Shown: positions 10,971 to 27,794 of the stretch, piece by piece
How the letters are laid out: each line of letters starts with the position of its first letter
How positions within the stretch are numbered: position 1 is the first letter of the stretch
Made by a program: the position numbers and the translations under genes
Assembly: GCA_905181995.1 (NCBI GenBank)
Contig: CAJIZO010000125.1
Span: 1-32,925, forward strand
DNA length: 32,925 bases
Source: Flavobacteriaceae bacterium TMED48
GTDB lineage: Bacteria; Pseudomonadota; Gammaproteobacteria; Pseudomonadales; Porticoccaceae
Direction of reading: 5' to 3'
The notes under the pieces: generated by a model
What the model saw: only the letters and a program-made list of their open reading frames with translations
Databases searched by the model: none
What the model was told of the DNA's origin: nothing

Positions 10971-12902
10971 TTAGGGCGTATACCAAATGGCTGAGGTATA
11001 GGCTCTGTCCTGAACGATTCTAGGGACTTGATCGGGCATTTTGACTTTAAATTTTAACTCGTCGTAAGCCGTCCACCGAGGCGTCGGAATCTCCAGCACC
11101 CGGACATAGTAAAAAGCCCTGAGCGTCGGATCGAAATCGGGATCAGTCCAGACTTGGTTGAAGTGCGAAGAGCCAATGCTGTTGGTATAAGACGCAGTTG
11201 TCAGATCCACCGTGCTGGCCACGGGTTGGTTAGGCGTACGATCGTCGGAGAGGGCAATGTTGTATATTTTTTCGTGAGTCGCTCCGGCACCATCCAACCA
11301 ACCTTTGATGACCTGAATCCGATCGAGGTTTGCCCCTAGCGGGTCTTTGACCGCCGACAACAAAAATGTCGGCGATTTGCCACTCGGCGCAGTGCTTAAA
11401 TCACCGCCCATCGGTACCCCTTTTCGGTAGCCGATGACCGCCAGGTCAGGTGCCATTGCGTCGCTCACATTAAAATTCCAACCGCCAAAAAAGTGCACGC
11501 TAATTCGAGGGCCCGACGTGGCATAGACCTCGCGGCGCTTGAGCGCGGCAAATATCTCTTCTCGGGTGTTTTCTTTGGCCCAAACGGCGGCCAATCCCGA
11601 GGCGCCAAACCGAAAGCCCTCCTGCAATACGCCAAACATTTGGTTGGCATAGCGACCCGGCTGGGGCAAGGACTCACCAAACTTGCCAAAAAAGTTGTCC
11701 TCATCGGTGGTTGCCAGCCCGGTATGCGAATCGGTGCTGCCGATCATACCGAACTTAAACGGATTGACGCCGAGCGCAGATTCATGCCGAAGGCCCTCGC
11801 GCAAGGCCGGGCGAATATAATCGTATTGGAAGTCTTCAGGCGTGCTGACCTTGGTAAATGCGAGGTTGCCTTGGTCCCACGACTCGAAATCGGCAAACGG
11901 ATCATCCGGCGATACGATTGGGTGGGTCTCCGAATCACCTTTGAGCTGGGTCACTTCCACCACTGGCTCCCATTTGGCACGCTGCGTCGCGTAATGGGCG
12001 TTCATAGGCGCACCATTTAAACGCACCGGAGCAAACATTTTCCCGCCACTGCCGTTGCTATTGTGCGGAATAGCCATCACCGAGCCACCAGTTTTTTGCT
12101 GGTATTTCTCTAAGTGATCCCACAACAGCTCCGGATCGTCGCCGTCTTGCGCGGAAAAAGGAATCTGTTGAACAGCCTTGTCTGCAGCGTCTTTAAAAAG
12201 CACCACGCGGTGCAATTGATCGCCCGCTGGAGCGGATGTCCACTCGTGAGCGATAAACGCGGTAAAATATCCTGGCAGATTGTGCTTGTCGCTTTCCTCG
12301 GCAATATCGCGCCAAATAGAACGGCGCACGTCCGGCGTATTCAAATACTTGGGATCCGGCGAGCTGGCCATCGATCCAGCCCATTCGATACCGACGTCGA
12401 TAATCCGGCCCTCGCGCATCATTTTTGCCCAGCGCTGCCCGACCTGCCAGTCTTTGAGTAGCGGGTCATTAACTTCCAACCGCGGGAATATTCCCATCTG
12501 CGATGCGTGATCGGCAATCGCCAAAAAATCCAGTGGCCGCCTGAGTTGGGCTTTCATACCATTGTCGGCGGTAACAACCTTGCCCTGGGCAAATCGATAG
12601 GCAATCTCGCGCGTCAAGCGCGTCCCTCTCAGATAGGCGTCGACCGACAGGTTAGTATGAAGATGGGTATCGCCCCATAGGAGTCGCATCGATGTATTTT
12701 CAACTGGCGGCGAATACACGACGTTGGCGAGGTCTTCGTCGGACAATTTTGACACCACAGTGTCCATCGACACGGTGGGCTCATAGATCGGTCGGAAGCT
12801 ATCAGCGCTGGTTTCCTGGGAAAGAATAAACCCAGAATAACTGGTGCAGGTCATCGCCAGCACTACAGCGTTTACGGTCTTTGAAAAATCACTAAATGGC
12901 AT
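10971..12902 (-). CDS. DUF3604 domain-containing protein (putative PHP-like metal hydrolase, secreted)
   Basis: LLWGDTHLHTNLSVDAYLRGTRLT, IAHEWTS, IGSTDSHTGLATTDEDNFFGK. ORF opens at 12962, but Met at 12902 has a good RBS (AAGGGAG) and begins a signal-peptide-like stretch (MPFSDFSKTVNAVVLAMTCTSYSGFILS). Confidence 0.85.
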   Translation of the reverse strand: MPFSDFSKTVNAVVLAMTCTSYSGFILSQETSADSFRPIYEPTVSMDTVVSKLSDEDLANVVYSPPVENTSMRLLWGDTHLHTNLSVDAYLRGTRLTREIAYRFAQGKVVTADNGMKAQLRRPLDFLAIADHASQMGIFPRLEVNDPLLKDWQVGQRWAKMMREGRIIDVGIEWAGSMASSPDPKYLNTPDVRRSIWRDIAEESDKHNLPGYFTAFIAHEWTSAPAGDQLHRVVLFKDAADKAVQQIPFSAQDGDDPELLWDHLEKYQQKTGGSVMAIPHNSNGSGGKMFAPVRLNGAPMNAHYATQRAKWEPVVEVTQLKGDSETHPIVSPDDPFADFESWDQGNLAFTKVSTPEDFQYDYIRPALREGLRHESALGVNPFKFGMIGSTDSHTGLATTDEDNFFGKFGESLPQPGRYANQMFGVLQEGFRFGASGLAAVWAKENTREEIFAALKRREVYATSGPRISVHFFGGWNFNVSDAMAPDLAVIGYRKGVPMGGDLSTAPSGKSPTFLLSAVKDPLGANLDRIQVIKGWLDGAGATHEKIYNIALSDDRTPNQPVASTVDLTTASYTNSIGSSHFNQVWTDPDFDPTLRAFYYVRVLEIPTPRWTAYDELKFKVKMPDQVPRIVQDRAYTSAIWYTP

Positions 12903-13143
12903 ACCGAACGACTCCCTTATTTTTATAACGCATCTAGGTAATCCGATTCTCTCTCTCGGCACCGCGGACTATTTGCCGCGCTTAAAAAGGTCGCCACCAT
13001 GAAACCCGGTGCTTTGCTGTGCGCCATCGTGCATCGATCGATGTAAACCAGTTTTCTATTAGCGCACGTTAATCCAATCATCGCGCGACTACTACCTGAC
13101 ACTTCGTGTAAGTCGTTTTAACTATGTTTGCGCGCCTTGTCAG

Positions 13144-14346
13144 CTATTCATACAAGCCGACAATCGAGATACTGCAGACGTTGCGATTGGGAAAGCCACC
13201 CAAATTGTGGGTTAATCCCAAGGTTGGATCGTCCAATTGGCGCTCCCCTGTACGGCCGTGCAGCTGCTGGTATATCTCGTACACCATGCGCAGCCCTGTA
13301 GCTCCAAGGGGATGGCCAAAACACTTTAGTCCACCGTCGACGTTGCACGGCAATGCGCCGTCCCGATCATACACCCCAGCGGTGATATCCTGACAAGCCT
13401 GACCCGGCGCCGACAAACCCAAATCCTCCATAGTCACCAGCTCGGTGATCGAAAAGCAGTCGTGCACTTCGACCATGTCCAGTTGCCGCTTCGGGTCGGT
13501 GATTCCTGCCTCGCTGTAAGCGCGCTTAGATGCTAGCTCTGCGGTCATAGCATGACTGCCATCCCACTCGTCGTAGAACATCTCCGCACCATTGCTAACC
13601 GCTAGTTGGAGCGCCTTAATACTCACTAAATTGGCCGCTCGGCCGATTTTTTTGGCCATTTCAGGTGTTGTCACAATGGCGCAAGCAGCGCCATCGCTAA
13701 CACCGCAGCAATCGAATAAGCCCAATGGATAAGAGATCATCGGCGCGTTGAGTACTTTTTCCTTGGTGATACGGTTTTTCAAATGGGCTTTTGGATTCAA
13801 GGCCCCATTCTCATGGCTTTTCCACGACACGTGCGCCATTGCCTCGCGCAATTGGTCCATGGGTATATTGTGTTTGTGGGCGTAGGCACTCGCCAGTTGC
13901 GCGAACGACCCCGGTGCCGAAACCCCCGGAAACCACAGATCTTCAAAGGTCCCCATGGTTCTCGCCGGCAAGCCGCCAAAGCCAGTATCCTTGAGCTTTT
14001 CGACGCCCATAGCGAGAGCAATATCGCAGGCCCCAGAGGCCACCGCATAAGCTGCGCCACGCAATGCCTCGGTACCGGTGGCGCAGAGGTTTTCGACCCG
14101 GGTCACCGGAACGTTCGGCAGGCGCAACGACTGGGATAGGGAGATGGAGGATTTACCCAAACTTTGCTCTTGATAACACAGCCCCAGCCACGCCGCCTCG
14201 ATCTGGGCTTTTTCTATCCCTGCATCTGCTAGGCACTCGTCGAACGCCTCGAGCATCAGATGCTCCGCGCCGCAGTCCCAGCGCTCGCCAAATCGGCTGC
14301 ATCCCATGCCAATAATAGCGACCTTGTCCTTGATTCCACTTGCCAT
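13144..14346 (-). CDS. thiolase / SCP2-type acetyl-CoA acetyltransferase family protein
   Basis: VENLCATGTEALRGAAYAV (nucleophile Cys), EVHDCFSITEL, KCFGHPLGATG (His); 400 aa. Confidence 0.9.
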   Translation of the reverse strand: MASGIKDKVAIIGMGCSRFGERWDCGAEHLMLEAFDECLADAGIEKAQIEAAWLGLCYQEQSLGKSSISLSQSLRLPNVPVTRVENLCATGTEALRGAAYAVASGACDIALAMGVEKLKDTGFGGLPARTMGTFEDLWFPGVSAPGSFAQLASAYAHKHNIPMDQLREAMAHVSWKSHENGALNPKAHLKNRITKEKVLNAPMISYPLGLFDCCGVSDGAACAIVTTPEMAKKIGRAANLVSIKALQLAVSNGAEMFYDEWDGSHAMTAELASKRAYSEAGITDPKRQLDMVEVHDCFSITELVTMEDLGLSAPGQACQDITAGVYDRDGALPCNVDGGLKCFGHPLGATGLRMVYEIYQQLHGRTGERQLDDPTLGLTHNLGGFPNRNVCSISIVGLYE

Positions 14347-14368: not shown

Positions 14369-15814
14369 TTATTCTGCGGCTGGTGCCGCTTTCCAGAAAT
14401 ATCGATGATAGCCCCGCAAGGGGTCGAAATCTTTGATTCGAAAGACCATCTGCAGCTTACTACCAATGCTCAATTCACCAGGGTCGAAGTCGGTAAACTC
14501 CATCATCAAGGTACTTTGACGATCAAATCTAACGCTTCCGTACATTAACGGTGGGTTCAACGACAACGCCAACCAATCCTCGGTGAAGGATTTCACCTGG
14601 CCGGCCTTGTTGGCGAACATCTCGTCATCCTGGGTATCTTGCTTGCCGCAATTGGGATTCACGCAAAGCGCAGTTTTCGGGAATTGCGCGACGCCGCAAT
14701 CGCGGCAGAGACCACCAACAAAACCAGTAATGGCTCGACGACCTCGATAAAAAGCAGCCTGGGAGGTGCGGTTATCGCGTTCTGCACGCATACCCCAATC
14801 GATATCCACGAGCCCGGCGAACGACAGGTAACGCAGGTAGTTAGTGTCGTCGACACCCGCCGCAATCGCCGCAGCAACGCCGTGACTTTCGCGAGCGCGA
14901 TGGACAATGTCAGTGGTTTGGAATAACAACGCATCGCAACCCTGGCCAAAGCCGACGAGCAGAATATGCTGGTCGGGTTCAGCCGCCTGGAGCGCATCGA
15001 CCAACAACAACAGCGCATCGGCGCTACCGGCGTGGCCAATCGGCGCTTTAAGGCCTTCGTGAAGCGCCATTTTATCGATACTACACCGGGCGGCAATCTG
15101 CGCCGCTGGCCGTCCATCGACGCCGGCAATCAGCAGGCGATCGATCTGTTCGGGTAACATGTGAAGCTTGGTCAATAGGGCCGCGACGGTCTCTGGAATG
15201 ATTTCCATCAAACCACAATCGCGGATCCAGCGCTCCTCCAGTGCGTAGTTATAATCGGACTGGGCAGTGCGATAGTGGTCGACCATATCTCGGGAAATAG
15301 AGTGCGATCCGATAAATCGCGCCAACTGTTGATCTTCGCCGGTGGTCAAGGCAGCCGCGGCATCGCCAACGGTGAATTCTTCGACGCTGCCGGCTCGGGT
15401 CAAACATTTTTCGGCACCCACCACCATGCATTCCGCACCGCCGTGTTGCAGCCCAAGTAATAACGCACTGGTTGCGGCCCTTTGAGAGCCACTGATATCT
15501 GCGGTTTGCAGATCCTCGGCAAGATTGAGCGCCTCGCCGACAACGGTGGCATTCTGGCGATCCGCAAACGGCAAGCTAGTGGACGCCAATAACAGCCGGT
15601 CGGGCGAGCGGTTGTCACCGCCACCAAGACAGACACGGGCCGCGGCTACCGCCATGGTAATAACATCTTCATCGTGCGAGCAAATGGCCCGCGAACCCTT
15701 ACCAAGCCCTTTTAAACCCGGTTTGGCCCAGGCATGAGCCGTTGCTATGGCGCTGCGCAACAATCGCCGCCTGGGTGCGTAGGCACCCACCGAAGTAATC
15801 CCTCTATTGGTCAC
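14369..15814 (-). CDS. HMG-CoA-synthase-like (thiolase superfamily) domain fused to C-terminal DUF35 zinc-ribbon/OB-fold domain
   Basis: N-terminal ITSVGAYAPRRRL and LLASTSLPFADRQNATVVGEALNL resemble HMGCS/KASIII; C-terminal CRDCGVAQFPKTALCVNPNCG zinc ribbon followed by OB-fold (VKSFTEDWLAL...YGSVRFD). Confidence 0.83.
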   Translation of the reverse strand: MTNRGITSVGAYAPRRRLLRSAIATAHAWAKPGLKGLGKGSRAICSHDEDVITMAVAAARVCLGGGDNRSPDRLLLASTSLPFADRQNATVVGEALNLAEDLQTADISGSQRAATSALLLGLQHGGAECMVVGAEKCLTRAGSVEEFTVGDAAAALTTGEDQQLARFIGSHSISRDMVDHYRTAQSDYNYALEERWIRDCGLMEIIPETVAALLTKLHMLPEQIDRLLIAGVDGRPAAQIAARCSIDKMALHEGLKAPIGHAGSADALLLLVDALQAAEPDQHILLVGFGQGCDALLFQTTDIVHRARESHGVAAAIAAGVDDTNYLRYLSFAGLVDIDWGMRAERDNRTSQAAFYRGRRAITGFVGGLCRDCGVAQFPKTALCVNPNCGKQDTQDDEMFANKAGQVKSFTEDWLALSLNPPLMYGSVRFDRQSTLMMEFTDFDPGELSIGSKLQMVFRIKDFDPLRGYHRYFWKAAPAAE

Positions 15815-15898: not shown

Positions 15899-16651
15899 CT
15901 ACAGTTTGGATGATTCGCCGCCGTCTATAACCATCACCGACCCGGTAACAAAATCCGACTGAGCGGACGCAAGGTAACAGGTCAAAGCACCTATTTCTGA
16001 GCTTTCCGCCATTCGCCGCGCTGGAATCTTACCTACTCGGCGCTTGAGTATTTCTGGCGATTCCATGACTTTGGACTGGGCGTCAGTTTTAAACGCGCCA
16101 GGGGCAATCGCATTCACCTGTACACCAAATTTGGCCCACTCTGCGGCCAGTGCTTTGGTGAATTGCAACACTGCGCCCTTACTCGAAGAATAGGCCGCGA
16201 GACTGGCCTTGCCGAGAATACCCGAGGTCGAGGCCACGTTTATTATTTTTCCCGAACCCTGGGCAACCATATGCTCGCCTGCGGCACGACAAAGAATCGC
16301 TGGGGCGGTGACATTGACCGCGAAAACCCGCTGCCACTCATCAAAATCTTGTTGTAAAAAAGGAGTCGCCGGCGCAATACCTGCATTATTAACCACTATA
16401 TCGATGCTTCCAAACAGCTCCCGCGCCTGCTCTGGCAGAGCGGCCACAGCCGCAGCGTCGAGCATATCGCACTGGCTGACCGCTATGCGCTCAGGATCTT
16501 GTGACTGCAGGTCGTTCAAGTCATCGATTGAGCGCGCCACGGCAAGTACTTTAACTCCCTGTCCAGCGAGGGCCAAGGCCATCTGATAGCCGAGCCCGCG
16601 GCTTGCGCCGGTGACGATTGCGACCTTGCCGGCAAGTTGAAAATCCATCAA
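15899..16651 (-). CDS. SDR family NAD(P)-dependent oxidoreductase
   Basis: VTGASRGLGYQMALAL, VNNAGIAPATP, YSSSKGAVLQFTKALA; ATGA-type overlap with upstream acyl-CoA dehydrogenase. Confidence 0.93.
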   Translation of the reverse strand: MMDFQLAGKVAIVTGASRGLGYQMALALAGQGVKVLAVARSIDDLNDLQSQDPERIAVSQCDMLDAAAVAALPEQARELFGSIDIVVNNAGIAPATPFLQQDFDEWQRVFAVNVTAPAILCRAAGEHMVAQGSGKIINVASTSGILGKASLAAYSSSKGAVLQFTKALAAEWAKFGVQVNAIAPGAFKTDAQSKVMESPEILKRRVGKIPARRMAESSEIGALTCYLASAQSDFVTGSVMVIDGGESSKL

Positions 16652-17778
16652 GCTTTCTCCAAAACCAACTGCTTGGCGATGCCAAGGCGCAGCACCTCGG
16701 ACGATCCTTCATAAATTCGCATCGGTCGTGCCTGACGATAAAGTCGCTCGATCTTCGATTGATGCTCTAGGCCATAACGGCCCATCATCTGAACGCAGCG
16801 ATCGACAACGCGCGAGGCCATCTCACTGGCGGCCAACTTTGCCATGGATGAGTGGTGCAAGGTCGACGACGGATCGGCGCAGGCCATCGAAGCGGCGCGA
16901 TAGGTGATCAACCGCGCCATCTCTATTTCGGTCCAACTGTCGGCTAACATTTGCGCAACCGGGCCTAGCCGTGCCAGCGGGCGCCCAAACTGGACCCGCG
17001 TGCTGGTGTGGCGAACCGCTTCGTCGAGCGCAGCTTGCGCTAGACCCACCGCGGCCCCTGCCACCGACACTCGGAACACGCCGAGCGTAGCGAGCGCATT
17101 TTGCAAGCCGTCACCAGCGACTCCCAAGCGAGCGCTATGGGGCAGTTGTACATTGTCGAAATAAACGTCGCCAAGCACGTGGGGCGCAATCAGTTCGGTG
17201 GTTTGCTTGGTCGACACACCATCGCTGTCCGCCGGCACTAACACCGTGGAGAACCCGCTATCCTCCTTGGCGAAAACAATATAATAAGCGGCGGCACCGG
17301 CGTTCGAAATATACGCTTTGGAACCATTTAAAACCAAACCGTCTGCGGTTTCTTTGACCTCGGTGGAGACCGATTTTAAATCTGACCCAGAATTGTCTTC
17401 GGTCAACGCCAGCGCACCCAGCGCTTCGGTCGCAGCCACTTTGGGTAGCCACTGTTCACGCTGTTGCTGGGAGCCGGCGACAGTAATGGCGTAACTGCCG
17501 ATGCCCTGCAGGGCAAACAGTGAATCGAGATGGGACGAGGTCGCCATCATCGCTTCACGCACGACACAAATGGCCAAAGGATCGATGGTTTCATAAGTGC
17601 CACCATATTCAGCAGCAACCATTAGCCGACTCAGACCGCTGGCCTTGAGCGCTTCGAGGACCCCTTGGTGTACCACGTTCGAGGCGTCGGCTTCGACCGC
17701 CATTGGCTCGATTTCTCGCGCTAACTCGAGCGCCCGCGCTTGGATAGTTAAATATTTTTCATCTAAATTGAAGTTCAT
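16648..17778 (-). CDS. acyl-CoA dehydrogenase family protein
   Basis: ALALTEDNSGSDLKSVSTEV, KAYISNAGAA, VQFGRPLARLGPVAQMLAD, YEGSSEVLRLGIAKQLV. Confidence 0.93.
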   Translation of the reverse strand: MNFNLDEKYLTIQARALELAREIEPMAVEADASNVVHQGVLEALKASGLSRLMVAAEYGGTYETIDPLAICVVREAMMATSSHLDSLFALQGIGSYAITVAGSQQQREQWLPKVAATEALGALALTEDNSGSDLKSVSTEVKETADGLVLNGSKAYISNAGAAAYYIVFAKEDSGFSTVLVPADSDGVSTKQTTELIAPHVLGDVYFDNVQLPHSARLGVAGDGLQNALATLGVFRVSVAGAAVGLAQAALDEAVRHTSTRVQFGRPLARLGPVAQMLADSWTEIEMARLITYRAASMACADPSSTLHHSSMAKLAASEMASRVVDRCVQMMGRYGLEHQSKIERLYRQARPMRIYEGSSEVLRLGIAKQLVLEKA

Positions 17779-17871: not shown

Positions 17872-18651
17872 TTAATCTTCGGGCTTGATTGCGCGACCGT
17901 CGAACTGTGCTTTACGCTTTTGCATAAAAGCGCTAGCTCCCTCGATCATATCGTTGGATCCAATGGCCTGCACCAACATGCCCAAACCGCTCAAGTAGGC
18001 GTCACGGGATTGATTCCACCATTGATTCGAGCTGATTTTGGCAATCTCCAAATAACGAGGACTCATCACCAGCAATTCATCTGCCCAACGGGTCACTTCG
18101 GCTTCGAGTTGATCGTTGTCGACCACCGCATTGATCCAGCCCATACCCAGTGCATCTCGAGCTTTGTAACGGCGACACATAAAAGCGACCTCTTTAGCGC
18201 GCTTTTCGCCAATCGTCAGGCTTAAAAAATTGGTTCCGCCAAGTACCGGCGCACTACCGATGCGCACACCAGTCTGCCCGAAAGTCGCGCTCTCAACGGC
18301 AATAGCCAAATCGCATGCAACCACCAATTCATTGCCGCCACCAGCTGCTGCGCCATTAACCGCGGCAATCACCGGTCGAGGACTCGTTCTAATCGCTTCA
18401 TAAACATCCAGCGACCCATAAAACATACTGCGCAGAGCGTTGGCATCCGGGTCTTGTAAATTAGCCAGATAGCCCCCCGCACAAAATGCGCGACCGGTGC
18501 CGGTAATCACAATAACACCGCTGTCGGCTGCACCACGCACCGCGGCAATCAACTCGCGCGCCATTTCCGCATCGTAAGAATTCATGCGTTCAGGACGGTT
18601 CAAGCGAATCCACGTGACCTCGCCCTTGGTCTCTACAACTACATCCGCCAT
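17872..18651 (-). CDS. enoyl-CoA hydratase/isomerase (crotonase) family protein, BadI/MenB-like
   Basis: VITGTGRAFCAGGYLANLQ, AAVNGAAAGGGNELVVACDLAIAVESATFGQTGVRIG; GEKRAKEVAFMCRRYKARDALGMGWINAVV resembles the MenB/BadI C-terminal half. Confidence 0.85.
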   Translation of the reverse strand: MADVVVETKGEVTWIRLNRPERMNSYDAEMARELIAAVRGAADSGVIVITGTGRAFCAGGYLANLQDPDANALRSMFYGSLDVYEAIRTSPRPVIAAVNGAAAGGGNELVVACDLAIAVESATFGQTGVRIGSAPVLGGTNFLSLTIGEKRAKEVAFMCRRYKARDALGMGWINAVVDNDQLEAEVTRWADELLVMSPRYLEIAKISSNQWWNQSRDAYLSGLGMLVQAIGSNDMIEGASAFMQKRKAQFDGRAIKPED

Positions 18652-19104: not shown

Positions 19105-19701
19105 ATGTCAGAAGAAACCCCCAAGAAACCCAATTTCGATCCCATCAAGCTTGAGCAAGTGAATGTCAACAAAGACTATCCGATGGAGCCAGAAGAATTT
19201 GACATCCTCTACAAGCACAATTGTTACTGCCATATGGCCCACGTATCGCAGTATGGTTACCCAATTGTCACGCCGATGTTTTACGTGGTGTTAGAAGATG
19301 GCCACGTCTATATCAGTAGCGTGCAAAAGTACCGAAAGAAAATTGATCACCTGATCGCCAACCCCAAGATCTCAGTCAGCATCAGCAACGACGGATCAAA
19401 CGCCAAGCGCCAGAAGTCGATTCAAATTATTGGTAAGGCTGAAGTATCTTTTGAACAAGAGCTAATGACCAAGGTTCACTGGGCGATTATCGACAAGTAC
19501 TGGTTTGACCTCAAGGGCAACGATGAGTTGCGCGCCGCAGCCTTTAAGGGTGTCCACACACCCAATCGCGCCATCATCAAGGTCCTCCCAAACAAAAACT
19601 CTCCCACGTCTTGGGACTTTGGCAAGATGGTTCAAATGTACGAGAAAGGCGTCTGGTTCAACGAATCTTACGAGATGTCAAAACCATACGACGTTCGATA
19701 G
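19105..19701 (+). CDS. pyridoxamine 5'-phosphate oxidase (PPOX)/FDOR-class split-barrel protein, possible F420- or flavin-dependent
   Basis: CYCHMAHVSQYGYPIVTPMFYVVLEDGHVYISSVQKYRKKIDHLIANPKISVSI is the split-barrel flavin/F420-binding pattern; 198 aa. Confidence 0.8.
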   Translation: MSEETPKKPNFDPIKLEQVNVNKDYPMEPEEFDILYKHNCYCHMAHVSQYGYPIVTPMFYVVLEDGHVYISSVQKYRKKIDHLIANPKISVSISNDGSNAKRQKSIQIIGKAEVSFEQELMTKVHWAIIDKYWFDLKGNDELRAAAFKGVHTPNRAIIKVLPNKNSPTSWDFGKMVQMYEKGVWFNESYEMSKPYDVR

Positions 19702-19723: not shown

Positions 19724-19749
19724 GGCAGGCTTTGGCCTGCCTTTTTTTT
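19724..19749 (+). terminator. rho-independent terminator downstream of the PPOX gene
   Basis: GGCAGGC-TTTG-GCCTGCC followed by eight T; immediately precedes the next gene's RBS. Confidence 0.85.
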
Positions 19750-19764
19750 CACGAGGAGGTAATT

Positions 19765-21423
19765 ATGGGACAGTGGGACGACAAATTCATCAAGGCCGAA
19801 AAGAAACTCGAATCTTGGAACATGCAAGAATATGCCAAACAAGACAGAGTTTTATCGAGCATCATCGAAGACAAGGCAAGACAGTATCCCAACCATGTTG
19901 TCTTTCAGTTCAGAGACGTGCCTATTACCTTTGAGCAACTCAACCACAACATCAACAAGGCCGCCAATGGTTTCGCGGCAATGGGTGTCAAGCACGGCGA
20001 CAAGGTCGCGCTCATGCTGCCCAATTGCGAAGAATTTTTATACGCTTGGTTTGGGCTGAATAAAATTGGCGCCGTCGAAGTGCCGATTAATGTGGCCCTA
20101 AAAGGCACCGGTTTGATTCATCAAATTGTGCAATCTGACAGCGTTGTACTGGTTGCAGACACCGTGTTCCTAGATCGACTAGGACCCGTTTCAGATGATC
20201 TGTCGAGCGTTAACCACACAGTTTTTTACAACACCACCGACGAGCAGAGCCTGCCGACGTGGAAAGGCATTGAGTGCAGCTTCTTTGCAGAATTAATGGA
20301 TCACTCGTCAGACTCGCCCAACGTCATCGTAAACTCCAGCGACATGGCATCCATCCTTTTCACCTCAGGAACCACGGGTGTCTCAAAAGGCGTCATGATC
20401 AGCCATTACTACTGGTATGACATCTGGTCTCAGTCGGTCAAGTACTCACAGTACACCGAGGACGATGTCCTCTACACCGGCCTGCCCTTTTTCCACGGCA
20501 ACGCGCAGGGGATTACCATTGGACCGGCGATACTAGCCGACGCTAAAGCGGTCATTGTGGAGCGTTTTTCTGCCAGTAGCCTGTGGGAGGACTGCCGACG
20601 ATGGGAGTGTACCGAGGCCAACTACATCGGCGGCATTATTCCGATTCTGATGAAGGCTGCAGAGCGCGCCGACGACGGCGACAACCCCCTTCGACTAATG
20701 GTCGGTGCGGCTGCACCAGTCAACATTTGGCACGATTTTGAAAAGCGCTTTAACACCAAATTGCTGGAAGTCTACGGCATGACTGAATGTTACTGCTGTC
20801 TGGCCAACCCAATCGACAACGTCCGTCCAGGCTCTTGCGGCAAGGCCATAACTGGCTGGGATGTACAGATTATCGACGAGAACAACAACCAAGCGGCTCC
20901 GATGGAATTGGGTGAATTTGTTGCCCGCCCACAAACTATGGGCGTCGGTACCAATGGCTATTACAAAATGCCCGAAAAGAGTCTCGAGCTGTTCGAAAAT
21001 ATGTGGATCAATACCGGCGACCTAGGGCGCATGGATGAAGACGGTTACTTCTATTTTGTCGACCGCAAAAAGCAGGCCCTGCGCCGCCGCGGAGAGAACA
21101 TATCCTCGTTCGAGGTCGAGGCGGTTATCAGTTCGCACCCATCGGTGCTTGAATCCTGCGTTGTTGGTGTGCCATCGGATGTTGGTGAAGAGGACGTCAA
21201 GGCGGTCGTTATCATGCAAGACGGCCAGCAGGTCAGCGAAGCCGAATTGATCGAGTGGTGTGAGCCGCGCATGGCGTATTTTGCCATTCCGCGTTACATC
21301 GCCTTCCGCGACAGTCTCCCCAAAACGCCGAGTGAGCGGGTTGAAAAATACAAGCTCAAGGTTGAAGGTGTTACCGAAGACTGCTGGGATCGCGAAGATT
21401 CGGGAATCGTACTCAAGCGATAA
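19765..21423 (+). CDS. class I adenylate-forming acyl-CoA ligase (CaiC-like AMP-dependent synthetase)
   Basis: SILFTSGTTGVSKGVMISH, EVYGMTEC, INTGDLGRMDEDGYFYFVDRKKQALRRRGENIS; AGGAGGT RBS before ATG at 19765 (ORF opens 19732). Confidence 0.93.
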   Translation: MGQWDDKFIKAEKKLESWNMQEYAKQDRVLSSIIEDKARQYPNHVVFQFRDVPITFEQLNHNINKAANGFAAMGVKHGDKVALMLPNCEEFLYAWFGLNKIGAVEVPINVALKGTGLIHQIVQSDSVVLVADTVFLDRLGPVSDDLSSVNHTVFYNTTDEQSLPTWKGIECSFFAELMDHSSDSPNVIVNSSDMASILFTSGTTGVSKGVMISHYYWYDIWSQSVKYSQYTEDDVLYTGLPFFHGNAQGITIGPAILADAKAVIVERFSASSLWEDCRRWECTEANYIGGIIPILMKAAERADDGDNPLRLMVGAAAPVNIWHDFEKRFNTKLLEVYGMTECYCCLANPIDNVRPGSCGKAITGWDVQIIDENNNQAAPMELGEFVARPQTMGVGTNGYYKMPEKSLELFENMWINTGDLGRMDEDGYFYFVDRKKQALRRRGENISSFEVEAVISSHPSVLESCVVGVPSDVGEEDVKAVVIMQDGQQVSEAELIEWCEPRMAYFAIPRYIAFRDSLPKTPSERVEKYKLKVEGVTEDCWDREDSGIVLKR

Positions 21424-21461: not shown

Positions 21462-21660
21462 TCGTCTCGGCGAGCAAAAGCCCCGGGGCAGCCATGGATC
21501 GAAGCGTTCTTGGAGCGTTTGAACACAGCCCAGGTTTGCTGACGCCAGCGGCGATTGACATAACACATGACCATATAATGAATAGCGCCCGCTTATCGCT
21601 CAAGACGGGTTGCCGATAACCGGCCTTATATTTAACTATGCAACAGCAAAGGAAATTAGT

Positions 21661-22575
21661 ATGTCTCAGATGCTCGAGGGAAAATCCATTATCGTCACCG
21701 GTGCAGGCCGTGGTATCGGCCGCGCAATAGCGATTATGCTGGCCGATGCTGGAGCCAACGTGGTGGTCAATGATCTCGGCGTCAGTGCGCAGGGAGAAGG
21801 TGCCGACTCGAGTCCAGCGGCACAGGTAGTCGATGAAATCACTGCCGCCGGTGGCAACGCCATCGCCAACTATAGCAGTGTCGCCGAGAGCGAGGCTGCT
21901 GAGGGCATTGTACAATCTTGCATCGATACCTTTGGTAGCGTCGATGGCGTGGTCAACAATGCCGGAATTTTAAGAGACTCCATTTTTCACAAAATGTCCG
22001 AGGATCAATTTGATCTGGTGATCAAAGTACACCTCAAGGGCTCTTTCAACATGAGCCGCGCCTGCGCGCCGCATTTTCGCACACAACAAAGCGGCAACTT
22101 TGTACACATGACTTCGACTTCAGCGTTGATCGGTAATCTTGCTCAGGCAAACTATATGGCCGCTAAATTGGGCGTAGTTGGGCTGTCCAAAAGTATCGCT
22201 CTGGACATGTCGCGCTACAACGTGCGCTCCAATTGCATTTCGCCCTTTGCCTGGAGTCGATTGATAGGCACCCTGCCTTCAGACACTGAAGAGCAGCAAG
22301 CGCGCTTGGAAAAAGTCAAGCAAATGACGCCAGAAAAAATCGCCCCCTTAGCGACCGCCCTGTTTAGCGACGCGGCGGCCGATGTGTCCGGGCAGGTATT
22401 TGCGGTGCGCAATAACGAAATATTTTTGATGAGCCAACCGCGGCCGGTGCGCTCGGTGCACACCGCGGAAGGCTGGACTCCAGAGACCGTCAGCGCGCAA
22501 GTCTTCGACGCCTTTAAAGCGTCGATGTATGACCTCGACGTTACCGCCGATGTATTCACCTGGGACCCGGTGTAA
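21661..22575 (+). CDS. SDR family oxidoreductase (3-hydroxyacyl-CoA dehydrogenase / MFE-2-like)
   Basis: MLEGKSIIVTGAGRGIGRAIA, VVVNDLG, VVNNAGILRDSIFHKM, NYMAAKLGVVGLSKSIA; Met at 21661 (ORF opens 21610). Confidence 0.92.
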   Translation: MSQMLEGKSIIVTGAGRGIGRAIAIMLADAGANVVVNDLGVSAQGEGADSSPAAQVVDEITAAGGNAIANYSSVAESEAAEGIVQSCIDTFGSVDGVVNNAGILRDSIFHKMSEDQFDLVIKVHLKGSFNMSRACAPHFRTQQSGNFVHMTSTSALIGNLAQANYMAAKLGVVGLSKSIALDMSRYNVRSNCISPFAWSRLIGTLPSDTEEQQARLEKVKQMTPEKIAPLATALFSDAAADVSGQVFAVRNNEIFLMSQPRPVRSVHTAEGWTPETVSAQVFDAFKASMYDLDVTADVFTWDPV

Positions 22576-22600: not shown

Positions 22601-23464
22601 ATGGGACTTGATTATCAAACGATTCTCAACTGGCGGTTCGACGACGTCGAACAAACCTATACAGAAAAGGACAGCATACTCTACGCCTTGGGGCTCGGGC
22701 TGGGCAACAACCCCACCGATCCAGAGCAGATAAAGTACCTGTACGAAAAGCAATTGCAGAGCTTTCCGACCATGGCTGTGACGCTGGGCTATCCCGGCGC
22801 GTGGCTAGCCAACCCGAAAACCGGCATCGACATAGTCAAAGTACTCCACGGCGAACAGCATCTGGAAATTCACCGTGATCTTCCCCCTCACGGCACCGTG
22901 GTTGGGCAGACCAAAGTACTCGACATCCTCGACAAAGGGGCCGATAAAGGCGCCTTGATCTTCACCCAGCGGCAACTCTTCGACAAGGCCTCCGGAGATT
23001 TGCTAAACACCCAAAAAGCGGTGGTCTTCGCGCGCGGCAACGGCGGCTTTGAACGCCCGCCGCAAACCGCTCCGGCAGCGCCTCCCAGCATTCCTGAACG
23101 CGCCGCCGACAGCCACCAAGATATTCAAATAGCACCCAATGCGGCCTTGCTGTACCGTCTCAGCGGCGACTATAACCCGCTGCATGCAGACCCAAAAATT
23201 GCCGCAAAAGCCGGCTTTCAAAGCCCTATTTTGCATGGCTTAGCAACGTTCGGCATCGCCGCAAGAGCGGTTTTAGACGCCTGTGCCACGCATCCAGGTT
23301 CACGCCTTACGCGCTTCAATGTGCGTTTTTCAGCGCCCGTTTACCCCGGTGAAACGCTGCGCACAGAGATCTGGCGAAGCGGTGAAGACATGATATTTCG
23401 CTGCAAAGTCGTCGAGCGCGACCAGACCGTTCTAAACAATGGCGCAGCGCGAATAGCCCGATGA
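22601..23464 (+). CDS. MaoC/FAS1-like double hot-dog enoyl-CoA hydratase 2
   Basis: YALGLGLGNNPTDPEQIKYLYE N-terminus and LSGDYNPLHADPKIAAKAGFQSPILHGLATFG hydratase-2 motif. Confidence 0.92.
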   Translation: MGLDYQTILNWRFDDVEQTYTEKDSILYALGLGLGNNPTDPEQIKYLYEKQLQSFPTMAVTLGYPGAWLANPKTGIDIVKVLHGEQHLEIHRDLPPHGTVVGQTKVLDILDKGADKGALIFTQRQLFDKASGDLLNTQKAVVFARGNGGFERPPQTAPAAPPSIPERAADSHQDIQIAPNAALLYRLSGDYNPLHADPKIAAKAGFQSPILHGLATFGIAARAVLDACATHPGSRLTRFNVRFSAPVYPGETLRTEIWRSGEDMIFRCKVVERDQTVLNNGAARIAR

Positions 23465-23556: not shown

Positions 23557-24566
23557 ATACTCAGCAACAACGTGAGGCGTGGTTAGCTCAGACCTCCGAG
23601 CCGATCCTCGAGCCGGAGTTGCAGATCTGCGACGCCCACCACCACCTCTGGGAGTACCCGGATAATCGCTACTTGATGGACGAGGCACTGGCTGATTTTA
23701 GCGCCGGGCACCGCGTGGTGAAAACCGTTTATGTCGAGTGTATGCAGCACTATTGGACCGGCGGGGCGGTTGAATTGCGCGCGGTTGGCGAGACCGAACA
23801 CATCGATGCATTGTCCCGCTCGACCCAGCAGGCGGGTGAGCCATGTGGCGTCGCGGCGGGGATTGTCGGCTTTGCCGACCTACGGCTTGGCGAAGATGTC
23901 TTGCCGTCACTAAAAATGCACTGCGAAAGCAGCTCAAGATTTCGCGGTATTCGCTACACTACCGCCTGCCACAGCAGCGACAAAATTCGTAACTCACATA
24001 CCAATCCACCGCCGCAGTTGCTGGCTGATCGAAAATTTCTCGACGGCTTTGCAGCGCTCGAATCACTCAATTTGAGCTTTGATGCGTGGCTTTACCACAC
24101 CCAGCTGGACGAGCTAGTGACGCTGGCAAAGACCTTTCCAAAGATTAAAATCATCCTCAACCATGTCGGTGGTCCACTGGGGCTTGGGCCCTATCGGGGT
24201 TGCAGAACCGAAGTCTTCGAAGCCTGGCGCACCAGCCTTACTGCCATTGCAAACTGCGACAATGTGTTCGTTAAGCTCGGCGGGCTAAATATGTCGATCG
24301 CCGGGTTCGACTGGCAAAAACAACCAGCACCGCCGACGTCGATAGATCTTGCAGAGGCTATAACACCGTATTTTAATACCTGCATCGAATTATTTGGTGC
24401 ACAGCGCTGTATGCTCGAGAGTAACTTTCCAGTAGATCGCGTGGCAGGATCTTACGCCGTACTGTGGAATGCGTACAAACGCGCAACGGCGAAACACACG
24501 GATGCTGAGCGGGCATCTCTTTTTTATCAAACGGCGGTTGATGTTTACCGCTTGGACAACCTTTAA
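23553..24566 (+). CDS. amidohydrolase family protein (TIM-barrel, COG3618-like)
   Basis: QICDAHHHLWEYPDNRYL, KIKIILNHVGGPLGLGPY, CMLESNFPVDR; 337 aa. Confidence 0.88.
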   Translation: MNTQQQREAWLAQTSEPILEPELQICDAHHHLWEYPDNRYLMDEALADFSAGHRVVKTVYVECMQHYWTGGAVELRAVGETEHIDALSRSTQQAGEPCGVAAGIVGFADLRLGEDVLPSLKMHCESSSRFRGIRYTTACHSSDKIRNSHTNPPPQLLADRKFLDGFAALESLNLSFDAWLYHTQLDELVTLAKTFPKIKIILNHVGGPLGLGPYRGCRTEVFEAWRTSLTAIANCDNVFVKLGGLNMSIAGFDWQKQPAPPTSIDLAEAITPYFNTCIELFGAQRCMLESNFPVDRVAGSYAVLWNAYKRATAKHTDAERASLFYQTAVDVYRLDNL

Positions 24567-24576
24567 GGCGAACACT

Positions 24577-25254
24577 ATGTCTGACAACAAACCTGTAATA
24601 GCAATTTTAGGCGGTACCGGCGATCTGGGTACCGGTTTGGCCCGCTGCTGGGCCGAGGCCGGATACCCGGTAATCATCGGCTCACGGACCGCAGAAAAAG
24701 CCGAGACGGCGGTTGCCGCTATGCAAAGCATGCTGGCGGAGCGCGGTATAGCCGAGATGAATCTGCGCGCGGCTGAAAACCTCGCGGCTGCCGAAAGCGC
24801 CGATATAGTCGCGATCACCGTGCCTTTCAGTCACCACCAAAGCACTTTGGAACAGGTTGCACCTGCCTTGCAAGACAAAATTTTGATCGATGTCACCGTA
24901 CCGTTGGTACCACCCAAAGTAGCCCGTGTGCAACTTCCAGAGGGCGGCTCTGCCGGACAGCGAGCGCAAGAGTTGCTCGGCGACGGCGTCCGAGTGGTCT
25001 CGGCATTTCAAAATGTTGCCGCCCACCACCTGCAAAAAGGCACCAATGCCGGTTGCGACGTGCTGGTTAGCGGCAACAATCGCGACGCGCGTGCGCAGGT
25101 CATCACTTTGGTCGAGGCCTGCGACATGCGCGGCTATCACGCGGGTTCAATCGCCAATGCCGCAGCCGCGGAAGCCTTGACATCGGTGCTGATTTTTATC
25201 AACAAACAGTACAAGTGTCACGCCGGCATAGCGCTTACTGGACTGGGTGAATAG
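24577..25254 (+). CDS. npdG: NADPH:F420 oxidoreductase-like (NADPH-dependent F420 reductase)
   Basis: IAILGGTGDLGTGLARCWAEAGYPVIIGSRTAEKA Rossmann motif, VVSAFQNVAAHHL; directly upstream of cofE. Met at 24577 (ORF opens 24469). Confidence 0.87.
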   Translation: MSDNKPVIAILGGTGDLGTGLARCWAEAGYPVIIGSRTAEKAETAVAAMQSMLAERGIAEMNLRAAENLAAAESADIVAITVPFSHHQSTLEQVAPALQDKILIDVTVPLVPPKVARVQLPEGGSAGQRAQELLGDGVRVVSAFQNVAAHHLQKGTNAGCDVLVSGNNRDARAQVITLVEACDMRGYHAGSIANAAAAEALTSVLIFINKQYKCHAGIALTGLGE

Positions 25255-25289
25255 TCGCTTGATGTCAGACTTAAAGAGGTAATCGAGCT

Positions 25290-26066
25290 TTGACTCGATC
25301 GACCACAGAAATGCGTTTAATCGCGCTGCCGGAGTTTCCTTTGGTGGAACCCGGCGACGATCTCGCCGCGCTGATTCAGGCGTCACTGGCGCGCGGGTCG
25401 CTGTTCCTCGAGGATGGCGATTTGTTGGTGATTGCGCAAAAAGTGGTGTCGAAAGCCGAAGACCGCTACGTCTACCTCAATCGAGTTGAGGTCGGTGACC
25501 GCGCGGAACAACTCGCGCTTGAGGTCGATAAAGATCCGCGTTTAGTGCAGGTCATACTCGATCAATCGAATGTTGTGGTCGCTCATCGCCAGGGCGTTTT
25601 GATCGTTGAGCATCAGCTCGGGTATGTTCATGCCAACGCCGGAATAGATCAGTCCAACATCACCAGCGACGAGAAAAATCCGCGCGTCTTGCTGCTTCCG
25701 GAAAACCCTGACGCAAGCGCCGACCAACTAGTTCGCAAACTAAAAACTAGCCCAGATCAACAGTTATCTGTCATCATCAACGACAGCGCCGGGCGCGCTT
25801 GGCGAAATGGATCAGCGGGTTTCGCCATAGGCACCAGTGGCTTGGTGGCGTTGGAAGATATGATTGGGGATCGCGACTTATTTGGCCGCGAGATGCAAGT
25901 TACCGAAGTTGCGATTGCCGACGAACTAGCAGCGGCAGCGTCCTTTTTGATGGGTCAGGCAGGGGAGTCGGCACCAGTGGTTCTAGTAAAAGGTGCCAAT
26001 TTAACACCCTCATCCGAGGGCTCCGGTGCGTTAATTCGCGCGCGCGACCGAGATCTATTTCGTTAG
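25290..26066 (+). CDS. cofE: coenzyme F420-0:L-glutamate ligase (standalone CofE domain)
   Basis: LPEFPLVEPGDDLAALI, DGDLLVIAQKVVSKAEDR, VIINDSAGRAWRNGSAGFAIGTSGL; TTG start with upstream AAAGAGGT. Confidence 0.92.
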   Translation: MTRSTTEMRLIALPEFPLVEPGDDLAALIQASLARGSLFLEDGDLLVIAQKVVSKAEDRYVYLNRVEVGDRAEQLALEVDKDPRLVQVILDQSNVVVAHRQGVLIVEHQLGYVHANAGIDQSNITSDEKNPRVLLLPENPDASADQLVRKLKTSPDQQLSVIINDSAGRAWRNGSAGFAIGTSGLVALEDMIGDRDLFGREMQVTEVAIADELAAAASFLMGQAGESAPVVLVKGANLTPSSEGSGALIRARDRDLFR

Positions 26067-26076
26067 GGGGAGTGAA

Positions 26077-27072
26077 GTGGTCGAATTTAACAGTGATCGA
26101 CATATCCTCGCCCTATCGGGAGGGGTCGGAGGCTCTAAGCTGGCGCTTGGGTTAAGCCATTGCTTGACCCCACAACAGCTAACGGTGGTGGTTAACACCG
26201 CCGATGATTTCGAACATCTCGGCCTGCATATCAGTCCCGACCTAGACACCTTGATGTACACGCTAAGCGGTCTAAACGATACCTCCCGCGGCTGGGGCCT
26301 AGCAGATGAATCGTGGGCTGCGCTGGATGCACTGGCGCGACTCGGAGAACCGACGTGGTTTCAACTTGGCGATCGCGACCTAGCGACCCACCTGGCAAGA
26401 AGCCATCAGCTGAAGAGCGGCTCAACGCTCTCGGCAGTGACCGCCAAACTCTGCGCCAGCCTCGGCATCGCGCACCCTATTCTACCGATGACCGACGACA
26501 CCGTCAGAAGCTTTATCGACACCGCCAGTGGCATGCTATCTTTTCAAGAGTATTTCGTCGCCCAGCGGTGCGCGCCGGAAACCCGCGGGATTCAACTGCA
26601 GGGAATTGAATCCGCTCGCCCACAAATAGGTTTTCAACAACTGTTACGCTCGCCCGACTTAGGGGCTATTGTTATAGGCCCATCCAACCCCTTTGTCAGC
26701 ATCGACCCCATTATCAAGCTTGCCGGCATCGCTCAGCAGATGCGCACAAGTGTTGCGCCGGTAGTCGCCGTATCGCCCATTATCGATGGCGATGCGGTCA
26801 AGGGACCCGCCGCAAAGATGATGGCAGAATTGGGCATGCCGGTGACTGCTGCGTCGGTGGCGGCCTATTACGGCGACCTGCTCGACGGCTTTGTTATCGA
26901 CCAAAAAGATGCCGCACATGCACAGCCCCTGCGCGACACTGGGCTGGCGGTGCTGGTGGTGCCGACCATGATGCAGACTCTGGAGGATCGCCGCACACTG
27001 GCACGCCAGGTGGTGGACTTTAGCCTGTCGCTATCGAAGCGCTTCGACGGCGCCAAAGCGGGTGCCATCTGA
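26077..27072 (+). CDS. cofD: 2-phospho-L-lactate transferase family (CofD/FbiA)
   Basis: ILALSGGVGGSKLALGL, VVVNTADDFEHLGLHISPDLDTLMYTL, VIGPSNPFVSIDPI; GTG start. Confidence 0.95.
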   Translation: MVEFNSDRHILALSGGVGGSKLALGLSHCLTPQQLTVVVNTADDFEHLGLHISPDLDTLMYTLSGLNDTSRGWGLADESWAALDALARLGEPTWFQLGDRDLATHLARSHQLKSGSTLSAVTAKLCASLGIAHPILPMTDDTVRSFIDTASGMLSFQEYFVAQRCAPETRGIQLQGIESARPQIGFQQLLRSPDLGAIVIGPSNPFVSIDPIIKLAGIAQQMRTSVAPVVAVSPIIDGDAVKGPAAKMMAELGMPVTAASVAAYYGDLLDGFVIDQKDAAHAQPLRDTGLAVLVVPTMMQTLEDRRTLARQVVDFSLSLSKRFDGAKAGAI

Positions 27073-27794
27073 TGTGGGCGCTGCTTCCGATCAAAACGCT
27101 GGCTGCCGCAAAACAGCGGCTGTCGCATCTGCTCAATGCATCCGAGCGCCAAGGGCTGTTTACTGCCATGCTCCACGATGTCCTCGCGGTGCTGTCTCGC
27201 CAATCGGAAGTCGAGGGTATCATTTTGGTCTCCGACGATCCCGTGGTTGCCAATCTGGCGCGCCGATACAGGTGCGAATGGATGCCCGAGAAGCCACTAG
27301 ATGCGCAAGGTTTAAACGCGGTAGTGCAAGCGGCGGTGTCGGCGCTCGCGCAGCGCGATATTGACAATATTATGGTTGTCCACGGCGACCTGCCACTGTT
27401 GTCCAACGAGGCGCTCAGTCTATTGATAGCCCGCCATCGACGCACTGGCAACAAGAGATTGACCCTGGCCCCAGATCGGCATCGCCAGGGCAGCAACTGT
27501 CTGCTGGCAACACCGGCTTCAGCGTTCAAATTTCACTATGGTGCAGACAGTTGCAACCAGCACTTGCAACAGGCGGCGAAGAGCGAATTCGACGCAAAAG
27601 TGGTTCTAAATACTGCTACTGGCTGCGACATTGACTACCCAGAGGATCTGGTTTACCTACTCGAGCACGCGCATGGGCAGGTTGCACAAAACACCATTAG
27701 TTACCTCAATGAACAAGGGATTGCCGCGCGCCTAGATGCAGGCGTAAGCAACCTAACACCACTGCAAGGCCGCCAATATGAACGGGTTAGTTAA
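27072..27794 (+). CDS. cofC: phospholactate/phosphoenolpyruvate/phosphoglycerate guanylyltransferase (CofC/FbiD)
   Basis: WALLPIKTLAAAKQRLSHLL, VSDDPVVANLA, VVHGDLPLLSNEAL, DRHRQGSNCLLATP; 1-nt overlap with cofD. Confidence 0.93.
   Translation: MWALLPIKTLAAAKQRLSHLLNASERQGLFTAMLHDVLAVLSRQSEVEGIILVSDDPVVANLARRYRCEWMPEKPLDAQGLNAVVQAAVSALAQRDIDNIMVVHGDLPLLSNEALSLLIARHRRTGNKRLTLAPDRHRQGSNCLLATPASAFKFHYGADSCNQHLQQAAKSEFDAKVVLNTATGCDIDYPEDLVYLLEHAHGQVAQNTISYLNEQGIAARLDAGVSNLTPLQGRQYERVS

Follow-up and report, generated by a model that had tools for sequence, protein, structure and literature searches.

The HMGCS-like/DUF35 fusion protein encoded in the window, the whole 32,925-nucleotide stretch of DNA analyzed here, is probably one half of a beta-ketothiolase encoded by two genes, the half without catalytic activity (a probability of about 0.8), and would be equivalent to PhlA and PhlB combined. 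Its gene belongs to a cluster for acyl-CoA catabolism, and a set of genes for F420 biosynthesis lies next to this cluster (Table 1). The catalytic triad of HMGCS has been lost, the loss is conserved throughout the family, and the domain that lost it is under purifying selection; the gene adjoins that of a thiolase with intact catalytic motifs, and the wider gene context is catabolic. The family looks large, widespread, and uncharacterized in the open literature searched, where no study of the fused family and no characterized member was found. Its members appear in databases as 'OB-fold domain-containing protein' or '3-oxoacyl-ACP synthase III C-terminal domain-containing protein'. The source assembly comprises 2.06 Mb in 218 contigs, and the named genomes closest to it are metagenome assemblies of Porticoccaceae and 'Cellvibrionales'.

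Table 1. Coordinates of the fusion gene, its domains and key codons, and neighboring genes in the window.
Feature	Position	Strand	Basis and remarks
HMGCS-like/DUF35 fusion protein, 481 aa, GTG start, without HMGCS catalytic triad	14369..15814	-	ORF, Pfam, NCBIfam, alignments
HMGCS-like (KAS-III-type thiolase-fold) domain, aa 1-335 (about)	14810..15814	-	Profile matches, AlphaFold2 and Foldseek
DUF35 domain (zinc ribbon and OB fold), aa about 350-481	14372..14767	-	Pfam, profile matches
Thr79 codon, at HMGCS catalytic Glu	15578..15580	-	Alignments; Thr in 53/58 members
Gln111 codon (CAA), at HMGCS catalytic Cys	15482..15484	-	Alignments; Cys in 0/58 members
Ala230 codon, at HMGCS catalytic His	15125..15127	-	Alignments; His aligned in 2/58
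Zinc-ribbon cysteines C370, C373, C384, C389 (CX2C-X10-CX4C)	14648..14707	-	Each Cys kept in at least 37/43 members
Partner SCP2-type thiolase, 400 aa; Cys88 (ENLCATG), His295 (HDCF), His345 (GHPLGATG)	13144..14346	-	NCBIfam PRK06157, above cut-off
Full-length DUF3604 protein	10971-12962		E 1.9e-229; downstream of thiolase, position kept in closest relative
SDR dehydrogenase	15899..16651	-	Pfam/NCBIfam
Acyl-CoA dehydrogenase	16648..17778	-	Pfam/NCBIfam; kept beside fusion/thiolase pair within genus
Enoyl-CoA hydratase/isomerase family	17872..18651	-	Below cut-off for BadI and MenB, the closest NCBIfam models
PPOX-fold protein	19105-19701	+	Below cut-off for F420-dependent TIGR03618 (weak match); next to ligase, conserved within genus
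AMP-forming acyl-CoA ligase, divergent side	19732..21423	+	Pfam/NCBIfam, relatives
SDR dehydrogenase, PRK07791-like	21610..22575	+	Pfam/NCBIfam; beside pair in other genera
MaoC-type hydratase 2	22601..23464	+	Pfam; beside pair in other genera

Domain architecture and fold

The earlier note on this DNA had read the gene as an HMGCS-like/DUF35 fusion, and the open reading frame, the Pfam and NCBIfam models, and the profile matches bear this out. Three Pfam models matched the protein: ACP_syn_III_C, zf-ChsH2 (25.3 bits, above the cut-off of 23.2), and OB_ChsH2_C (23.4 bits, E 6e-5, below the cut-off of 27.1). The DUF35 part carries the four-cysteine zinc ribbon of that family, and a profile built from the family matched the archaeal DUF35 protein 6esq_E (1e-13) across both the zinc ribbon and the OB parts, as well as PhlB (1.3e-10) through its DUF35 part. 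When the single fusion protein was compared with the PDB by phmmer, the matches were PhlA (1.6e-24), a second PhlA (1.5e-18), archaeal HMGCS (2.1e-17), and archaeal DUF35 (0.035); the family profile matched the two PhlA entries at 1.1e-56 and 3.7e-56, archaeal HMGCS at 3e-50, and Staphylococcus aureus HMGCS at 2e-21. Judged by sequence, both halves of the protein, HMGCS/KAS-III-like and DUF35, are real.

A full-length AlphaFold2 model computed from a seven-row alignment was poor (pLDDT 43.5), and the HMGCS-like domain modeled alone was of moderate confidence (pLDDT 65, pTM 0.72). Top Foldseek matches of the domain model were PhlA (1.9e-16) and archaeal HMGCS (5.9e-15), with TM-scores of 0.68-0.71 by query length, and the fold of the dead domain is KAS-III/HMGCS-like, unlike that of the ketosynthase of polyketide loading modules. 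The model runs from a strand at residues 103-106 through a loop into a helix at 113-123, which places Gln111 at the nucleophile site of the thiolase fold.

Loss of the catalytic triad

Catalytic positions were mapped by phmmer alignment to PhlA (5m3k) and archaeal HMGCS (6esq), by MAFFT, and by profile alignment to S. aureus HMGCS (1tvz). With both the archaeal and the staphylococcal references, Thr79, Gln111, and Ala230 of the fusion protein align with the catalytic Glu, Cys, and His of HMGCS, so the three replacements proposed in the earlier note are upheld by all three methods, as is the CAA codon that it gave for Gln111 (read from 15484 to 15482). The protein thus has none of the catalytic residues of an active HMG-CoA synthase, and the NCBIfam HMGCS models score below their curated cut-offs, PRK04262 at 147 bits (E 6e-43) against 244 and TIGR00748 at 103 bits against 353. 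The possibility that another Cys occupies the active site had also been raised; the HMGCS-like domain has no Cys that the whole family shares, and therefore no substitute nucleophile is evident.

Relatives were gathered from the same genus, family, order, class, and phylum and from annotated plasmids, and included Rhodococcus and Mycobacterium; the comparison covered 58 full-length members, which belong to Pseudomonadota and Actinomycetota. Position 79 is Thr in 53 of these and otherwise Asn, Gly, Ala, or Ser, and position 230 is mostly Pro, Ala, or Asp, with His absent from 56. Since Cys at position 111 or Glu at position 79 occurs in none of the 58, replacement of the triad is not a product of chance or sequencing error. 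A quick maximum-likelihood tree, with MucA and archaeal HMGCS on long branches, shows the family as a single clade (SH-aLRT 100) separate from PhlA, MucA, and archaeal HMGCS. One sub-clade (L085, L093, L100, and L101) has Arg at position 111; three of its members (L093, L100, and L101) are without the zinc-ribbon cysteines, yet still adjoin a thiolase, and two (L085 and L093) are those with a His aligned at position 230.

Position 111 and the decarboxylase reading

The earlier note had likened Gln111 to the KSQ substitution and suggested a decarboxylase. KSQ domains are ketosynthases of polyketide loading modules in which Cys is changed to Gln and which carry out decarboxylation only (PMC12843615), and by this analogy Gln111 would enable the HMGCS-like pocket to decarboxylate an acyl-CoA. 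Gln is indeed the commonest residue at the Cys position (30 of 58) and is present in every sampled member of the window's genus, and in loading-module ketosynthases the same change does yield decarboxylase activity (PMC12843615). Nevertheless, the survey of position 111 across homologs, which had been named beforehand as a check, found no conserved Gln but nine residue types: besides Gln, there are Ser (7), Arg (7), Leu (5), Thr (3), Met (2), Ala (2), and, in the remainder, Pro or Gly. The residue changed at least 16 times on the tree (all rows) among otherwise equivalent loci, and its column ranks 207th of 326 in conservation, whereas the neighboring Arg112 is near-invariant and ranks 22nd. 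Drift of this kind would be unexpected in a catalytic residue, and the KSQ analogy therefore fails even though Gln is the most frequent state. The HMGCS His is lost as well, the fold is of the KAS-III/HMGCS type, there are no polyketide synthase neighbors and no loading module with AT and ACP, and no enzyme of the cluster obviously produces a carboxylated CoA ester. The same loss is common to the PhlA and MucA subunits of thiolase complexes, which the earlier note did not consider and which by alignment have C/G/Q and C/E/Q, respectively, at the Glu/Cys/His positions. The decarboxylase reading is accordingly very improbable.

Constraint on the HMGCS-like domain

The HMGCS-like domain is still under purifying selection, with dN/dS about 0.1. 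Against a 96% identical relative, values were 0.105 for this domain, 0.04 for DUF35, and 0.03 for the thiolase. A decaying gene without a role would account for the faster divergence of the HMGCS-like domain compared with the thiolase (mean distance 0.58 vs 0.41), but all family members have open frames, the zinc cysteines and many other residues are kept, and pairing with a thiolase is conserved across two phyla. Given the dN/dS value and this conservation, a pseudogene was rejected, and the likelihood of decay is close to nil.

Residues D48-E49-D50, R112, E193, and R195 are strongly conserved in the HMGCS-like domain and nearly invariant, and they could hide another activity, perhaps one that acts on the thiolase's substrate by hydrolysis or proton transfer. 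Such newly gained catalysis is unlikely: no nucleophile is conserved, and D48-E49-D50 and R195 are common to archaeal HMGCS and PhlA, for which reason they are probably structural.

Partner thiolase

The three components of a PhlABC-type complex (thiolase, HMGCS-like, and DUF35) are encoded together here, and the thiolase keeps its active Cys88. A thiolase adjoins the fusion gene at 55 of 58 loci, on the same strand and mostly tens of bases apart or overlapping; of the other three, L059 lies at a contig end, and L080 and L083 show no thiolase within the short flank covered. The thiolase Cys, the HDCF His, and the GHP His are kept in all 40 partners compared, one of which (L003) is cut at a contig end. 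Where a genome carries two fusion paralogs (e.g., G017, G019, G024, G028, G030, and G034), each fusion gene comes with a thiolase of its own. Pairwise distances for the HMGCS-like domain and for the thiolase are closely correlated (r=0.90; Mantel, 0 of 2000), as common descent alone could produce. The genome of the window also has two further stand-alone DUF35 genes (L086 on G000:C211 and L087 on G000:C43), each with an SCP2-type thiolase homolog nearby.

Among solved structures, the partner thiolase is closest to the archaeal thiolase 6esq_A (1.1e-54), followed by BbsB (2.9e-41) and PhlC (about 1e-18 to 4e-18). This order bears on the alternative that the pair is a CoA-independent acyltransferase of the PhlABC type with a biosynthetic role, a reading consistent with the fact that, among solved structures, PhlA stands closest to the HMGCS-like domain and shows residue loss of the same kind. 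The thiolase, however, stands nearer to the archaeal acetoacetyl-CoA thiolase and to BbsB than to PhlC, the fused family is separated from PhlA as a fully supported clade, and the neighboring genes encode acyl-CoA ligases, dehydrogenases, hydratases, and CoA-transferases, with no polyketide genes among them. A biosynthetic acyltransferase is thus improbable, to much the same degree as newly gained catalysis.

Gene neighborhood

The genes for the enoyl-CoA hydratase, acyl-CoA dehydrogenase, SDR, fusion protein, and thiolase form an apparent minus-strand operon, and the divergent plus-strand genes encode the PPOX-type protein, the AMP-forming ligase, an SDR, a MaoC-type hydratase, an amidohydrolase, and proteins of F420 biosynthesis. 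Orthologs elsewhere have CoA-transferases, dehydrogenases, MaoC hydratases, SDRs, and also acyl-CoA ligases as neighbors, and in Actinomycetota ring-hydroxylating dioxygenases are adjacent as well.

A full F420-biosynthesis set (CofE-type ligase, CofD, CofC, and FbiC/CofGH) together with an F420_oxidored (Fno-like) gene occupies positions 24469-30306 of this Porticoccaceae gammaproteobacterial DNA, beside the acyl-CoA cluster. Of 58 related genomes, 14 have both the fusion gene and CofD (26077-27072), three the fusion gene alone, 10 CofD alone, and 31 neither, a co-occurrence above expectation (Fisher p 7.5e-5, uncorrected for phylogeny or completeness). Within the genus the corresponding counts are 6, 1, 0, and 7 (p 0.005, likewise uncorrected for phylogeny and completeness). 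This co-occurrence may point to an F420-dependent pathway.

Proposed role and implications

As the non-catalytic half of a beta-ketothiolase, the fusion protein would join the neighboring thiolase and help to shape its CoA/acyl pocket while performing no chemistry itself. The dead HMGCS-like domain would be the counterpart of PhlA or of the archaeal HMGCS subunit, and the fused DUF35 domain that of PhlB, acting as a clamp between an HMGCS-type dimer and a thiolase dimer. Through Cys88, His295, and His345, the adjacent thiolase would perform the chemistry and split a beta-ketoacyl-CoA by thiolysis, as the last step of a beta-oxidation-like sequence of ligase, acyl-CoA dehydrogenase, hydratase, SDR, and thiolase; the cluster encodes enzymes for every step of such a sequence. 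The dead domain would be retained for folding and assembly and probably for closing the CoA/acyl pocket. Of the earlier proposals, that of a CoA-binding scaffold fits the evidence; CoA binding itself is inferred, as are complex formation, the direction of the reaction, and the substrate.

A broader and more tentative reading, which is rather doubtful at present, is that the fused dead-HMGCS/DUF35 protein and its thiolase represent a widespread class of catabolic beta-ketothiolases in which the relic pocket gives half of the CoA/acyl site and sets the substrate range, and which in Porticoccaceae might serve the F420-dependent degradation of an alicyclic or terpenoid-like acid.

The archaeal mevalonate complex and PhlABC both combine a thiolase with HMGCS-type and DUF35 subunits, a structural principle that would extend to many degradative clusters of Pseudomonadota and Actinomycetota. 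Proteins of the fused family should not be annotated as HMG-CoA synthases or ketosynthases, and the pairing suggests that many neighboring 'acetyl-CoA acetyltransferases' might seem inactive when expressed alone.

Comparison with known systems

The benzoylsuccinyl-CoA thiolase BbsAB (7pxp) likewise combines a thiolase with DUF35 in a catabolic beta-oxidation operon, and its BbsB subunit is matched by the partner thiolase. Unlike the fusion protein, BbsA is not known to have an HMGCS-like domain in addition to its DUF35 domain. The steroid aldolases Ltp2/ChsH2 and Sal/Shy also pair a thiolase-fold enzyme with a DUF35 domain on another protein (PMC12329534), but Ltp2 and Sal are retro-aldolases with YDHF or YDCY motifs, and in Sal a Gly replaces the nucleophilic Cys (PMC12329534). 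A retro-aldolase of this type was rejected for the partner thiolase, which has Cys88 and HDCF intact and neither YDHF nor YDCY.

In the MucABC acyltransferase (Streptococcus, 9vbo/9vbt), MucA aligns as an HMGCS-like subunit without the triad, although it is very distant (on a long branch) and the system serves tetramate biosynthesis (PMC10161427). The archaeal complex (6esq) has the same three components, with matches to 6esq_A (thiolase), 6esq_I (HMGCS), and 6esq_E (DUF35), and there the HMGCS, thiolase, and DUF35 protein share a CoA site (PMC6392133, PMC12329534). Its HMGCS, however, retains Glu82, Cys114, and the His and makes HMG-CoA, whereas the window protein is without all three residues and has its parts fused.

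PhlABC (Pseudomonas protegens 5m3k/5mg5; Chromobacterium sphagni 9skh) offers the same combination of a triad-less HMGCS-like subunit, a DUF35 protein, and a thiolase with active Cys88. PhlA is without the key Cys and Glu, catalysis relies on PhlC residues only, and a functional complex requires both PhlA and PhlB (PMC6392133, PMC12955522); in PhlABC, as in the archaeal complex, DUF35 links the HMGCS-type and thiolase parts (PMC12329534). PhlABC differs in having separate genes for PhlA and PhlB, in being CoA-independent, and in producing diacetylphloroglucinol, while the pair described here has the HMGCS-like and DUF35 parts fused, a thiolase closer to archaeal and SCP2 thiolases, and a catabolic context. 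The logic of the fused family is the same as that of PhlABC.
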